DNA from: Sorangium aterium | Lineage (GTDB): Bacteria; Myxococcota_A; Polyangia; Polyangiales; Polyangiaceae | NCBI RefSeq assembly: GCF_028368935.1 | Contig: NZ_JAQNDK010000003.1 | Coordinates: forward strand, 248,001 to 312,000 | Length of the DNA stretch: 64,000 nt | Reading direction: 5' to 3' | Shown: one piece after another, positions 27,222 to 35,407 of the stretch | Position numbering within the stretch: the stretch's first letter is position 1 | Layout of the letters: each line of letters opens with the position of its first letter | Program-made: the position numbers and the translations under genes | Notes under the pieces: generated by a model | Seen by the model: the letters and a program-made list of their open reading frames with translations, nothing else | The model's database searches: none | Told to the model about the DNA's origin: nothing

Positions 27222-27938
27222 TCAGTGCTTCGGCGCGGTGCGGAGGAGGTCGGTCAGGGCGTCGTCCGCGGAGGCGGCGAGGGCGTCGAGGAGCGCGGCC
27301 AGGCGGGCGTGCTGGTCCGGGGTGAAGGGGGGCATGCCGAAGCGCGCGCGGACGCCTGAGAGGCGAAGAGCTAGGCCGGCGCCGTCCTGGTAGCCGGCGA
27401 TCCAGGGGCCGCGGAGGAGCTCGTCGCAGATGCGATGGAGCCGCGACTCGAAGGCGGCGCGATCGGCGAGGGCGCCGGCAGGGGAGGGGGCGCGCTGCTG
27501 GAAGTGGTGGATCGAGGCGGCGGTCTCGGTCGGGGCGCCGTCGATGGCGTCGAGGCCGGCGCGGAGGTCGTCGAGGAGGGGCGCTAGGCCCGTCCTGCGG
27601 ACGAGCGCGCCGTCGAGGCACATCTCCCAGAGCACGTGCGCGAACAGCGCGAGCCGGGGCGCGCCGAGCGAGGCGGCGCGCAACGCGGCGGCGAGGCGGC
27701 GCTCACCCTCCACGAAGACGGGGGCGGCGTGGAACCAGCGGTCGACGGCGACGTGGTGGTCGATGCCGGCCAGCACCTCGGCGAGGCGGGGCGGCGGGGC
27801 GGCAGGGCGATCGGGCGCGCGGGAGGGCCTGACGCGCCGGTCGGCCATGCGCCAGAGGTCCGGGAGCATCGCCGCTGCGCCCGCGGCGGCCGAGCCGAGG
27901 TCGCGCGCGGCGAGGTGGCGATGAAGCAGGAAGTTCAT
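27222..27938 (-). CDS. AcpH-like (acyl-carrier-protein phosphodiesterase-like) protein
   Basis: 238 aa, ATG 27938. The start MNFLLHRHLA, an Asp about 27 residues in (LPDLWR), the central GIDHHVAVDRWFHAAPVF and WEMCLDGALVRR parallel the MNFLAHLHLA, AGIHMHRRID and WDHFLSRHW landmarks of AcpH. That enzyme removes phosphopantetheine from acyl carrier protein using an HD-like metal site. The spacing is similar, but identity is low and an Arg/Pro-rich insertion sits near residue 40, so substrate and activity are uncertain. It is convergent with the L,D-transpeptidase gene. Confidence 0.5.
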   Translation of the reverse strand: MNFLLHRHLAARDLGSAAAGAAAMLPDLWRMADRRVRPSRAPDRPAAPPPRLAEVLAGIDHHVAVDRWFHAAPVFVEGERRLAAALRAASLGAPRLALFAHVLWEMCLDGALVRRTGLAPLLDDLRAGLDAIDGAPTETAASIHHFQQRAPSPAGALADRAAFESRLHRICDELLRGPWIAGYQDGAGLALRLSGVRARFGMPPFTPDQHARLAALLDALAASADDALTDLLRTAPKH

Positions 27939-28241
27939 GCGTTCAGGATGGCGCTGCCGTCCGCGGCGGTCGACGATGAACCGACGCGGCGCGCTCTCCC
28001 TCGCCCTTTCGATTCCCGCTCTGGGGCAAGGGATACTGCTTCTTCGGCGTCCCTGCGCGCCCGTGAGCGCCTGAAGCGCAGGCCGACCGTGACAGGCAAA
28101 GAGCGAGTTCGGCCGCTGCGCTCATGTAGGCAAATCAGCGCCGTCGAGCTCGAATCACCGGCCTCATCATGACCCGGCCGGCGGAGGCGGCTCCATGCCA
28201 GTCGCCCGTCGCGGCCGTCAGGGCCTCTTTCCCTCCCTGGA
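27939..28241. other. intergenic region upstream of the nested palindrome
   Basis: First part of a 519-bp gap between divergent genes. No convincing reading frame or promoter was identified; it should contain the promoter of the AcpH-like gene. Confidence 0.5.
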
Positions 28242-28408
28242 GCCGCGGGCGAGGGGATGTGCGAGGCGGGGCGCGCGTGGAGACGGGCCGCTGTCCGAGC
28301 ACTCTTGCCGCTCGCGCCTCCCACGCGCAGCGAGGGAGGCGCGAGCGGCCCATGCGAGTTCGGCGGGCCCCACGCGCGCCCCGCCTCGCACATCCCCTCG
28401 CCCGCGGC
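28242..28408. repeat. nested perfect inverted repeat (39-bp outer arms, 16-bp inner arms)
   Basis: 28242-28280 is the exact reverse complement of 28370-28408 (39 bp). Inside it, 28307-28322 is the exact reverse complement of 28334-28349 (16 bp) around an 11-nt loop. The element sits 49 bp upstream of the kinase start at 28458 and could form a cruciform in DNA or a double hairpin in RNA. It encodes no transposase and has no obvious target duplication. Confidence 0.95.
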
Positions 28409-28457
28409 CGTTGCTTCTCTTGCTCGGGGTTCGGCGCAACAGGTAGCCTAGGCAACG

Positions 28458-31400
28458 ATGCAGGCCAGCGACCCGTTCGGCTGGGTGGGGTCGATCATCG
28501 ACGGCCAGTTCGCCGTCGAGGCGCTGGCGGGCGAGGGAGCGTTCGGCGTCGTCTACCGGGCCCGGCACCTCGGCTTCGATGCGCCGGTCGCCGTCAAATG
28601 TCTCAAGATCCCCGCGGGTCTAAGCCCTGACCAGCAGGACGGCTTCCTCGCCAAGTTCCGCGAGGAGGCGCGCCTGCTCCACCAGCTCTCGCGCCGGACG
28701 ATGGGCATCGTCCAGGCGCTCGACATCGGCGCTGCCGCGGCTCCGAAGGGGCCCTGGACGCCGTACATCGTCATGGAGTGGCTGGAGGGCGAGACGCTCG
28801 AGCAGGATCTCAAGCGCCGCAGCGCCGAGAAGCTCCCGCCGAGGAGCCTCGGCGACGCGATCCGGCTCCTCGCGCCGGTCGCCTCCGCGCTCGCCGTCGC
28901 CCACGACGAGAACGTGTCTCACCGCGACGTCAAGCCGGCCAACCTGTTCCTGCTCGGCGACCGCATGAAGGTGCTCGACTTCGGGCTCGCCAAGGTCTTC
29001 TCGGAGACGCCGACGTTCGCAGAGGCGCTCGTCCAGACGGGACGAACGTTCCGCGCCTTCACGCCGCAGTACGGCGCGCCGGAGCAGTTCAGCCCGCGGT
29101 TCGGCGCCACGGGGCCCTGGACCGACGTCTATGCGATGGCCCTCATCCTCGTCGAGGTCGCGAGCGGTCAGCCCGCCCTCTCGGGCGGCGACGTCATCCA
29201 GCTCTTCGTCGCCTCGAGCGACGAGGCGATCCGGCCGAGCTTCCGTTCCCGCGGGGTGAACGCGAACGCCGACGTCGAGGCGGTCCTCGGCCGCGCGCTC
29301 GCGATCAACCCCTCGCAGCGGTTCCACAACCTCGGCGAGATGTGGGCCGCCCTGGAGGCCGCCCACCGCTCCAGCATCGTCGTGGTGGCGCGCGACACCC
29401 TGCGCGCGCCCGCCTTCGGCCCGAGCGACACGAACGACGACGCGGACGGGCTGCTCGACCTCGCCACCGTCCACCTGCCGCCGCTGCCGCCGCCGCCGGC
29501 GCTGTCGGTCCCGCCGCCGTCGCTGCCGCCGTCGTCGAGGTCGTGGCTGGCGCCGGACAGCAGCGGGATGAGGGGGAGCGTGAGCTCCGATCGCGGCTCG
29601 CCGCGGACCCGGGCCGCGCTGCCGTTCGAGGGTGGAGAGCACCGGATCTGCACCGTCCTGTTCGCCGATCTGTCCGAGGCGACCGCGCTCTCGTCGCGGC
29701 TCGATCCCGAGGACGTCAAGGACGTCGTCGACCGCTGCTATCAGGAGCTCGCGGAGCACGTCGAGCAGATGCACGGGATCGTCGAGCGGCCGATCGGCGG
29801 GCGCGTCATGGCCGTCTTCGGCGTCCCTCGCTCGACCGACAGCGACGCCGAGCGGGCGATCGTCGCGGCGCTCGGCGCGCAGGCCGCGATCCCGCGCCTC
29901 GCGCTGCCGCGCGCCGCGCGATCGGTCCGCCTCTCGGTGCGGTTCGGGATCGCGACGGGGCGGGCCTTCGTCGGCGCGGGAGGCTCGGCGCGTCAGGACC
30001 TCGCCGTCATCGGCGACGCGGTCGACGGCGCGGGGCGCCTGCAGCAGCTCGCGCCGCGCGGCGCGATCGTGATCGGCCGCGACACCCACCGCCTCGTCCT
30101 CGGGCGCTTCCACGTCGAGCCGATCGACGCGGGCGCGGGTGCGGTCCGGGCGCCGGCGGCGCCTCCGGCGTCCACCGCTCACGGCGCGGCGCAGCCGATC
30201 TACCGCGTGCTCGGCGAGGCGCCGCTCCACCACGCGTTCGCGCCGCCCGATTTCCATGGGCTCTCGACGCGCCTCGTCGGGCGCGGCGCGGAGATGCAGC
30301 GCCTGTGTGATCTCGTCGAGACCGCCTTCCACGAGCGGCGGCCGCGCCTCATCACGCTGGTCGGCGCGCCCGGCGTGGGACGGACGCGGATGCTCGCAGA
30401 GCTCTTCGCGGGCCTCCGCGACGGCGGCGCCGGGGGCGGCGCGCCCTCCTCGGAGCGCGGGTACGCGCTCGCGCCGCCCGGGGAGCTGCTCACCCTCTCG
30501 GCGCAGTGCTCGGCGCTCGCGCAGGAGTCGAGCTATGGCCTGGCCGGCGCGCTGCTCCGCCGCTGGTTCGGGATCCACGAGGCCGATCCAGCCCAGGTCA
30601 TCCTGCGCAAGCTGCGCCGCGGTCTGCGCTGGATCCGGCTGCGCGCCGCGCGCGCCCGCGTCCGCGCCGAGCGGGAGGCCGCCGGGGCGGGGGCCAGGGC
30701 CGCCGCGCTCGGGGGCGCGTCGCCCATCGTGACCCGCGCGTCGTCCGTCCCGCTCCGAGGGCCGATCAGCTCGACCGTCAGCGGGCGCAGGGGAGCCGGG
30801 GCGGCGCGGTACGAGGACGACGACGAGCTCGATCCGTCGCCCTCGCTGTCGAGGCCGAGCGGGGGGAGCGACCTCGAGGAGATCCTCGCCCGGCTGGCGG
30901 CGATCCTGGGCGCGCGGCCTGCGCCCGCAGGGCTGCTCGAGGCCGCGGCGCGCGGCAGCGTGCTGGCGAGGCGCCGGATCGCCTCCGCGCTCGTGCTGCT
31001 CGTCACCTTCGCCCTCGAGCGGACGCCGATGGTGATCGTGTGCGACGACCTGCAGTGGGCCGACGACGCGACGCTCGACCTCGTCGAGGAGCTCGTGGCG
31101 CACGCCGAGGGGCTGCCGCTCTGCATGGTGTGCACCGCGCGCCCCGAGCTCTACGAGCGCCGCCCCGACTGGGGCGTCGGGAAGGAAGCGTACGTCCGCG
31201 TCGACGCGTCACCGCTCGCGCGGCGGCACGCGGAGGAGATGATCCGGGATCGGCTCCGCGGCGCCTCCGCGCTCGATCTCGAGCTCGTGCGCGCGATCGC
31301 CGAGCGCTCCGAGGGCAACCCGCGAACCGTGGAGGAGACCCTCCACCTGCTCGTGGACGCCGGCGCCATCGAGGCCCAGGAGGGCGCGTGGCACGTCCGT

Positions 31401-32045
31401 GACGACGCGCTCAGCGCGCTGAGCCTGCCGCCGGCGGTGCACGGCGTGGTCCAGGCGCGCCTCGACCGCCTGGACGAGGCCGCGCGCGGCCTCCTCGCGC
31501 AGGCCGCGGTCGTCGGCCGGACCTTCTGGGAGGGCGCGGTCGAGCGGCTCCGGAACGACGCCCCGCAGGCGCGCTCGCCGATGTCGAGCGAGCGCATCCT
31601 CGCGGAGCTCCAGGATCTCGATCCGCCGTTCTCGGTGCGCCACGGCGGCAGCGCGTCCACCGCCGAGCTGCTCGCGCGCCTCTGCGAGCGCCAGCTGATC
31701 CGGCTCCGCTCCCCCGCGTCGTTCCCCGGCGAGCGCGAGTACGTGTTCGTGGAGCAGGCGACGTGCGAGGTCGCCTACGAGATGCTGAGCCTCAAGATCC
31801 GCCGGCGGATCCACCTGCTCGTCGCCGACTGGATCGAGCACCGCGCCCCGAACGCGGCGGCGCGCGACGAGGGCGCCGCCCTCCTCGCCCACCACTATGA
31901 GCGGGGCGGCGATCTGCGGGCGGCCGCGGCGGCGTACGACCGCGCCGCGGCGCACGCCACCGCGATCGGCGAGGGCGCCGCGGCGGCGCGCCACGCGGCG
32001 CGCGCCCGGGAGCTCCACGACGAGCTCGCGGCCGACGACGCGTAG
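28458..32045 (+). CDS. Ser/Thr kinase fused to cyclase-like and AAA/STAND-like domains
   Basis: 1195 aa. The Hanks kinase (about residues 14-300) has GEGAFGVVYRA, the catalytic Lys in VAVKCLKI, SHRDVKPANL and LDFGLAK, so it looks active. A Pro-rich linker follows. Residues about 395-570 form a class III cyclase-like domain: the first metal Asp is present (CTVLFADLSEA), but the second site reads GGRVMAVFG where GDAVMAVFG is usual, and the ribose-binding Asn region reads GDAVDGAGRL. The AAA-like domain (from about 610) has a P-loop GAPGVGRTRM with Arg in place of the conserved Lys and a Walker B-like VIVCDDLQWAD. The remainder is helical. Signalling through the kinase, with the other domains as regulators, is the likely design. 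The start codon is close to the palindrome at 28242-28408. Confidence 0.93.
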   Translation: MQASDPFGWVGSIIDGQFAVEALAGEGAFGVVYRARHLGFDAPVAVKCLKIPAGLSPDQQDGFLAKFREEARLLHQLSRRTMGIVQALDIGAAAAPKGPWTPYIVMEWLEGETLEQDLKRRSAEKLPPRSLGDAIRLLAPVASALAVAHDENVSHRDVKPANLFLLGDRMKVLDFGLAKVFSETPTFAEALVQTGRTFRAFTPQYGAPEQFSPRFGATGPWTDVYAMALILVEVASGQPALSGGDVIQLFVASSDEAIRPSFRSRGVNANADVEAVLGRALAINPSQRFHNLGEMWAALEAAHRSSIVVVARDTLRAPAFGPSDTNDDADGLLDLATVHLPPLPPPPALSVPPPSLPPSSRSWLAPDSSGMRGSVSSDRGSPRTRAALPFEGGEHRICTVLFADLSEATALSSRLDPEDVKDVVDRCYQELAEHVEQMHGIVERPIGGRVMAVFGVPRSTDSDAERAIVAALGAQAAIPRLALPRAARSVRLSVRFGIATGRAFVGAGGSARQDLAVIGDAVDGAGRLQQLAPRGAIVIGRDTHRLVLGRFHVEPIDAGAGAVRAPAAPPASTAHGAAQPIYRVLGEAPLHHAFAPPDFHGLSTRLVGRGAEMQRLCDLVETAFHERRPRLITLVGAPGVGRTRMLAELFAGLRDGGAGGGAPSSERGYALAPPGELLTLSAQCSALAQESSYGLAGALLRRWFGIHEADPAQVILRKLRRGLRWIRLRAARARVRAEREAAGAGARAAALGGASPIVTRASSVPLRGPISSTVSGRRGAGAARYEDDDELDPSPSLSRPSGGSDLEEILARLAAILGARPAPAGLLEAAARGSVLARRRIASALVLLVTFALERTPMVIVCDDLQWADDATLDLVEELVAHAEGLPLCMVCTARPELYERRPDWGVGKEAYVRVDASPLARRHAEEMIRDRLRGASALDLELVRAIAERSEGNPRTVEETLHLLVDAGAIEAQEGAWHVRDDALSALSLPPAVHGVVQARLDRLDEAARGLLAQAAVVGRTFWEGAVERLRNDAPQARSPMSSERILAELQDLDPPFSVRHGGSASTAELLARLCERQLIRLRSPASFPGEREYVFVEQATCEVAYEMLSLKIRRRIHLLVADWIEHRAPNAAARDEGAALLAHHYERGGDLRAAAAAYDRAAAHATAIGEGAAAARHAARARELHDELAADDA

Positions 32046-34501: not shown

Positions 34502-35194
34502 ATGATCTCAGAGGCGTGCGGGCTCTGCGCTTGGCCGGCGAGCCTTCTCGTCGACGACGTACAGCGGCACAAGAGTGCGCTCCTGGACATGGCGCTGCAG
34601 ATGCGTGCGGACGACAAAGAGCCGCTCGCGCGCGTGGCCTTCCGGGGCGCGCTCTACTGGCAGCGCTGGCTCCTGACGAAGGAGCCTGGGCTCCACGAGG
34701 AGGCTCGGGTCGTCTCCGGGCTCGAGTTCGCCCGAGAGGCTGGCGACTGGAAGGAGGCCGACATGCTCCTTGCCCACGCCGACGGCTCGAGCGCCCTCGC
34801 CGGTCTGCCGTTCGTCGATCACTGGAAGGCGCTCGTCGCGCAGCACTTGCCGGAGCAGGTGAGCGACGAGCACGAGCTCGAGGAGACGTTCCAGGAGTTC
34901 CGGCGGCACCCCAGCGAGGAGGCCGCGGAGAGCGTGCGGCGCTGCGCCACGGCGATCGCGCCCCTCGGGTCGCCGGTCCCGGTGCACAGCCTCCTTGCGC
35001 GTGTGGCGATGGATCTCGGCCAGACCGAGGAGGCGGAGTTCCACCTCGCCGCGCTCGTCGTCTGCAGGCCGCTCTGGATCCCCTACGTCGTGCAGCTGGC
35101 CGAGCACCAGGCGAGGCTCGATCTGCCGCGCGCCCTCCGCACGATCGAGGACGCGCGCCGCCTCTTCGGCCCCGACTTCTGGCTCCCTCTTTGA
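34502..35194 (+). CDS. hypothetical TPR-like protein
   Basis: 230 aa, ATG 34502 with GAGGGGG upstream. Predicted all-helical, soluble. Pairs of helices of roughly TPR size (FRGALYWQRWLLTKEP, VVSGLEFAREAGDWKEADML, RVAMDLGQTEEAEFHLAALV) suggest TPR-like repeats ending RALRTIEDARRLFGPDFWL. Two early Cys residues (CGLC) might bind metal. The function is not recognised. Its stop codon lies at the edge of the nested palindrome at 35193-35317. Confidence 0.75.
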   Translation: MISEACGLCAWPASLLVDDVQRHKSALLDMALQMRADDKEPLARVAFRGALYWQRWLLTKEPGLHEEARVVSGLEFAREAGDWKEADMLLAHADGSSALAGLPFVDHWKALVAQHLPEQVSDEHELEETFQEFRRHPSEEAAESVRRCATAIAPLGSPVPVHSLLARVAMDLGQTEEAEFHLAALVVCRPLWIPYVVQLAEHQARLDLPRALRTIEDARRLFGPDFWLPL

Positions 35195-35317
35195 GCGGGG
35201 CTCACCCGCTTCGGATACGGGCCCATCTCGGCGTTTTCGGTGCTCAGCGCACGGGAGTGCGCCTGCGCGCCGAAAACGCCGATCTGGACCCGTCTCCTGT
35301 GCGGGTGAGCCCCGCTC
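35193..35317. terminator. nested palindrome between convergent genes, probable bidirectional terminator
   Basis: The outer arms 35193-35209 and 35301-35317 (17 bp, perfect) enclose middle arms containing cggcgttttcgg / ccgaaaacgccg (35229-35240, 35270-35281) and an inner hairpin gcgcac-ggga-gtgcgc (35247-35262). The element starts inside the stop codon of the upstream gene and ends 90 bp from the stop of the convergent kinase. Position favours termination; the length and nesting are unusual for that. Confidence 0.65.
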
Positions 35318-35407
35318 GGCGACGCAGCTCGGGAGAGCGTCAGCCGTCGACGGCCTTTGATCCTTTGGAGCGCACTTGTGGCCGGATCCAGTGCCCCCGG
35401 CCTCGCC

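Follow-up and report, generated by a model that had tools for sequence, protein, structure and literature searches.

A dispersed family of nested-hairpin repeats in Sorangium with a conserved core and variable, paired arms

Results

The window analysed here is a stretch of 64,000 nucleotides of the Sorangium aterium genome. A nested-hairpin element occupies positions 28242-28408, with its core oriented on the minus strand, as recognized by the genome search and by covariance model match. The outer arms, 28242-28280 and 28370-28408, are 39 bp long and complementary at all 39 positions, and they enclose a spacer of 89 nt. Within the spacer lie two inner arms, 28307-28326 and 28330-28349, paired at 19 of 20 positions (95%), of which 28307-28322 and 28334-28349 form a perfect stretch of 16 bp. 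The original prediction of perfect 39-bp palindrome arms with a nested 16-bp palindrome is therefore borne out. The interval given for it is the exact foot-to-foot span of the hairpin, but conservation between copies is confined to the 89-nt middle and does not include the arms.

The conserved middle consists of two segments read on the minus strand: a 5' half at 28354-28369, GGCCCGCCGAACTCGC, in a segment 97% identical over 41 family members, and a 3' half at 28281-28302, GTGCTCGGACAGCGGCCCGTCT, with 94% identity over the same members. For the composition of the window and spacers up to 200, about 6e-14 perfect 39-bp inverted repeats are expected by chance; the second-longest perfect inverted pair in the window is 17 bp. 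The DNA strand of the element folds at -103.6 kcal/mol (z = -15.6) and the minus-strand RNA at -162.4 (z = -15.0).

The ATG of the downstream gene, which encodes a protein with Ser/Thr kinase, guanylate cyclase and AAA ATPase parts (28458-32045, plus strand), lies 49 nt past the end of the element. On the other side is an ACP phosphodiesterase-like gene (27222-27938, minus strand; marginal Pfam match), followed by remnants of a methyltransferase-like gene (27928-28063, plus strand), of which only the start and the end are found and which has an intact counterpart in So0157-2. The earlier description of the site as lying between divergent genes holds for the two intact neighbours, but the gap also contains these plus-strand remnants.

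A search of the element's own genome (13.47 Mb in 7 contigs) gave several distant copies of the palindrome. All of them are nested hairpins with the common asymmetric middle GCCGAACTCG ... TCRGACANCGGCC and with arms that differ between copies yet are perfectly paired. The first covariance model, built from six of these copies, found 20 distinct elements in the window genome and further elements in all five other Sorangium genomes. The covariance model match to the window element has E = 1.1e-10 (C3:276253-276397, minus strand). This search for further copies, proposed with the original prediction, was decisive: the window palindrome belongs to a dispersed, genus-centred family of hairpin repeats with at least about 20 copies in the window genome, all family copy numbers being lower bounds.

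For the family analyses 63 distinct elements were extracted. A second covariance model, from 41 members, was run on 183 genomes of the order; all six Sorangium genomes were positive, and only two single copies were found among the other 177. When a two-part core pattern was scanned over 84,980 species, every stem-bearing match was from S. cellulosum (the scan named So ce26, So0157-2, So ceGT47 and So0008-312), while none of the many core-pattern matches outside Sorangium had inner and outer stems. Every copy has the asymmetric core GCCGAACTCGC ... CTCAGACATCGGCC, flanked by variable outer and inner arms which are nearly always perfectly paired. The family is marked by the core GCCGAACTCGC ... 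TCRGACANCGGCC within nested arms; the window element has this core, reading GCCGAACTCGC ... CTCGGACAGCGGCC on its minus strand, and falls in a small divergent subgroup together with L003, L006, L062, L069 and L082. Column identity over the 41 members is highest in the core (94-97%), falls to 76% in the outer arms and is lowest, at 69%, in the inner part.

The two copies outside Sorangium are L047 (genome G036) and L257:560-720 (genome G029). An A/T run (CAATTTTTTGGCGG) occurs in one arm of the copy from G029; it is thus the core that is conserved and not the composition of the arms.

No Rfam family reached its gathering score, and the sub-threshold matches were nearly all to microRNA precursors; a known Rfam family was therefore rejected as the identity of the element. 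The family is apparently undescribed so far: no account of it came up in literature searches.

The pairing of the arms was assessed on 41 elements aligned to the covariance model. Standard pairs occupy 98.6% of 2356 cells, as against 72% in shuffles and 44-49% when the arms are slid, and none of 500 shuffles matched the observed values. In the 30-bp outer helix of the 41 copies, two-sided changes occur in 293 cells and a one-sided (G-U) change in one, and RNAfold over all 63 elements gave 61 G-U among 2801 outer pairs; the elements were detected by pairing, so that weakly paired, decayed copies are under-sampled and these figures exaggerate both how perfect the arms are and how scarce G-U pairs are. 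The helices adjoining the core do hold G-U pairs. The exchange of GC for CG is frequent in the outer helix, and such a change cannot proceed through G-U. The orthologue of L006 in genome G003, which was located through its flanks rather than its pairing, shows nearly perfect pairing as well.

Orthologous elements, with flanks mostly 88-94% identical, were compared in eleven pairs; of 400 outer-arm base pairs, 60 differ on both strands, and there are paired insertions and deletions besides. Orthologous elements often carry wholly different inner hairpins. L067 and L069, which are unrelated loci of one genome, share a nearly identical inner hairpin that their orthologues lack; inner hairpins thus appear to have been exchanged between loci. 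In the 41 aligned copies, the preponderance of two-sided changes in the outer helix fits template copying from arm to arm better than slow compensation at the RNA level. Template switching has been proposed as a route to perfect stems in RNA (PMC8794818), and the copying of one arm from the other at the DNA level is a well-supported explanation of how the arms are maintained here.

At L004, L005 and L049 partial tandem duplications of one hairpin arm adjoin the element; replication slippage at a hairpin would be expected to leave such duplications.

The strand of the neighbouring genes was deduced from GC by codon position and not by a gene caller. On this basis 56 of the 63 copies have a same-strand gene 5' of the core strand, its stop codon lying a median of 32 nt upstream, and the gene on the other side of the element is most often convergent. 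Where the gap is convergent and the two distances are not tied, the stop of the upstream gene is the closer one to the element in 25 of 27 cases (p = 6e-6). In the alignments of L026 and L031 the coding sequence extends right up to the element. Since seven of the 63 copies depart from this arrangement, the window copy among them, placement 3' of a gene is a tendency rather than a rule. The orientation relative to the transcript suggests either a role at the RNA level or a target preference near gene ends.

The window copy is a divergent and atypically placed member of the family. Its upstream neighbour in core orientation is the kinase gene, on the opposite strand, so that it does not lie 3' of a core-strand gene. 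Beside the kinase gene, So0157-2 and So0008-312 have sequence that is about 94% identical and no element at the orthologous site, which, together with its position upstream of the kinase, marks the window copy as an outlier in placement. The empty site in So0157-2 reads CTGGAGC|GGCCG and holds the methyltransferase-like gene and a further plus-strand gene; the window genome retains only the ends of the former and the latter is missing. In So ce26 and So ceGT47 the sequence upstream of the kinase differs. An in-place inversion of the spacer was considered as a possible reason for the reversed orientation of the window copy.

The presence of elements varies locus by locus among Sorangium species. 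At L006 the element is found in three species and decayed remnants in the others; at L026 and L031 arm fragments are retained in some species; at L029 four other species show only a short gap without an element. Both gain and loss of elements seem to occur. The flanks of non-orthologous copies share no homology, and no target-site duplication was seen at the window or L029 site, where the flanks are not clean. The Y1/RAYT transposase domain PF01797 was found in none of the six Sorangium genomes, the control genomes being positive, and a RAYT/REP origin was rejected on this ground.

Discussion

Taken as a whole, the data are best explained by a Sorangium family of nested hairpins with template-copied arms that would act as an RNA rod at transcript 3' ends; we put the probability of this combined reading at about 0.55. 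Its first step concerns DNA. Replication would stall at the hairpin and one arm would serve as template for the other, which would keep the pairing perfect at the DNA level, and copies would occasionally swap inner hairpins. In the second step the upstream gene's transcript would carry the core-strand RNA at its 3' end, where this RNA would fold into a rod of about 150 nt and block RNA polymerase, 3' exonucleases or both. The conserved loop may be a recognition site, either for a protein or for a mobilising enzyme.

The functional part of this reading comes from position. The stop codon just upstream in 56 of the 63 copies and the arrangement in convergent gaps lead us to infer a 3'-end element, that is, a terminator or an exonuclease barrier, as the best account of function. 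The placement could instead stem from purifying selection against insertions elsewhere. In the original prediction the place was considered wrong for a terminator. This is true of the window copy only, since the majority of copies have a stop codon a short way 5' of them. Like an intrinsic (Rho-independent) terminator, the Sorangium element is a GC-rich hairpin that follows a stop codon directly and often stands between convergent genes. It differs in being far longer and nested, in having a conserved internal loop and in lacking a U-tract: none follows the hairpin, and no terminator-like site was found in 27900-28520. An ordinary terminator was therefore rejected for want of a T-run. The local effect of the window copy is uncertain; it would either insulate the promoter region of the kinase from read-through or have no effect.

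The strongest competitor, which we consider improbable but by no means negligible, is a non-autonomous mobile element of MITE or REP-like type with no cellular function. Its conserved core and ends would be the target recognized by the mobilising enzyme, and the bias to 3' ends would reflect selection against other insertions. A mobile palindromic element was also the nearest of the three guesses made originally, in that the family is indeed dispersed. Occupation of the window and L029 sites in one species only agrees with mobility, as does the apparent exchange of inner hairpins between loci. The other strand of the main subfamily begins CGGTAGGCC, with GTAG at the foot of the hairpin as in REPs (PMC3733652). 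Most copies of the main subfamily have this GTAG on their complementary strand; those in the subgroup of the window copy do not. Against mobility stand the lack of PF01797 in all six Sorangium genomes and of a target-site duplication at the window and L029 sites, where the flanks are not clean. Moreover, the elements at L006, L026 and L031 are old in the genus, with arm remnants in some relatives that point to inheritance and loss, and terminal arms of changing sequence are unusual for a transposon.

According to a second alternative, the conserved internal loop would be the active part of a structured RNA or ribozyme, with helices that serve as a scaffold and are kept by ordinary RNA-level selection. 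The loop does lie between covarying helices, the core-adjacent helices hold G-U pairs, and placement downstream of genes is strand-specific. Yet G-U intermediates are nearly absent from the outer helix (1 against 293), which argues against selection on RNA pairing alone as the force that shaped it, and no Rfam family reaches gathering score; this alternative is unlikely. The more specific suggestion of a structured RNA leader of the kinase is not supported, since copies have no particular association with kinase genes and the orthologous kinases of So0157-2 and So0008-312 have no element.

A cruciform, or another DNA-level protein-binding site controlling the kinase, would make use of the position 49 nt upstream of the ATG and of the strong fold of the single DNA strand (-103.6 kcal/mol). 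Other copies adjoin unrelated genes, however, the upstream element is lacking in So0157-2 and So0008-312, and the sequence differs in So ce26 and So ceGT47. Such a site is very unlikely, and kinase-specific regulation was rejected because of the two orthologues without the element. Although the perfect arms could recall an assembly artefact by read fold-back, this is excluded by the non-palindromic 89-nt spacer, by the offset inner hairpin and by the presence, in six assemblies that include three complete chromosomes, of about 60 relatives with sequences of their own.

It is useful to compare the Sorangium family with known palindromic repeats. YPAL or RU-2, the Yersinia palindromic sequences of about 168 bp, and ERIC or RU-1 (127 bp) are clade-restricted, dispersed intergenic palindromic repeats that can form long stable hairpins and occur in tens of copies per genome (PMC2759123). 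The Sorangium repeat is similar in size, dispersal, hairpin folding, copy number and clade restriction, and is nearest in kind to repeats of this type. The entire sequence of YPAL and ERIC is conserved between copies, whereas in the Sorangium repeat only the asymmetric core is conserved, and the outer and inner arms alike change in sequence without losing their pairing. REPs are 20-40 bp long, with stems of 5-13 bp (PMC3733652). The likeness to REPs and BIMEs lies in the extragenic palindromes and in the GTAG that, in the main subfamily, adjoins the foot of the hairpin on one strand, as it does in REPs of the GTAG type, but the Sorangium elements measure about 150-170 bp, the window stem alone 39 bp, and their host genomes are without the Y1 transposase domain. 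The terminal inverted repeats of MITEs are conserved between copies; the outer arms here have a mean column identity of 76% and three or four pair types at most positions.

Hairpins maintained by template switching were described by Monttinen and Loytynoja in 2022 for rRNA and microRNA stems (PMC8794818). They resemble the present elements in having perfect stems that change by simultaneous two-sided substitutions. The Sorangium elements differ in that they form a bacterial repeat of many copies, their helices measure 30-45 bp and the effect is much stronger. If the explanation by template copying is true, the family would be a clear natural case for the debated idea that long perfect stems arise through template switching and not through G-U intermediates, and it offers many independent orthologous pairs for measuring template switching. 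In addition, very large genomes in which transcription termination has been little studied would gain a 3'-end element that is apparently not yet catalogued.

A broader view is possible, although we hold it only tentatively and think it doubtful in its full extent. The helices around a conserved, strand-specific RNA core may be undergoing constant renewal through arm copying and inner-hairpin exchange between loci, so that structure is inherited and sequence is not. Two other repeat families, at 35182-35328 and at L051, L055 and L057, look as if built on the same plan, and this may be a general mode by which elements evolve in these genomes, possibly with a dedicated enzyme that recognizes the core.

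The first of these, at 35182-35328 of the window, is a hairpin repeat of 130-147 bp that also lies between convergent genes. It is far more abundant, numbering at least about 40 in each complete Sorangium genome, and has a conserved core (...CAGGAGACGGGCCCAGATCGGCGTTTTCGG...) and variable paired ends. It had been intended as a control with imperfect arms and was dropped because its outer arms also vary in a paired fashion. The other is a third family of long inverted repeats (L051:1186-1432, L055:1788-2046 and L057:1127-1370), which has no Rfam match; perfect but variable arms of 40-47 bp flank a conserved core of about 165 nt.
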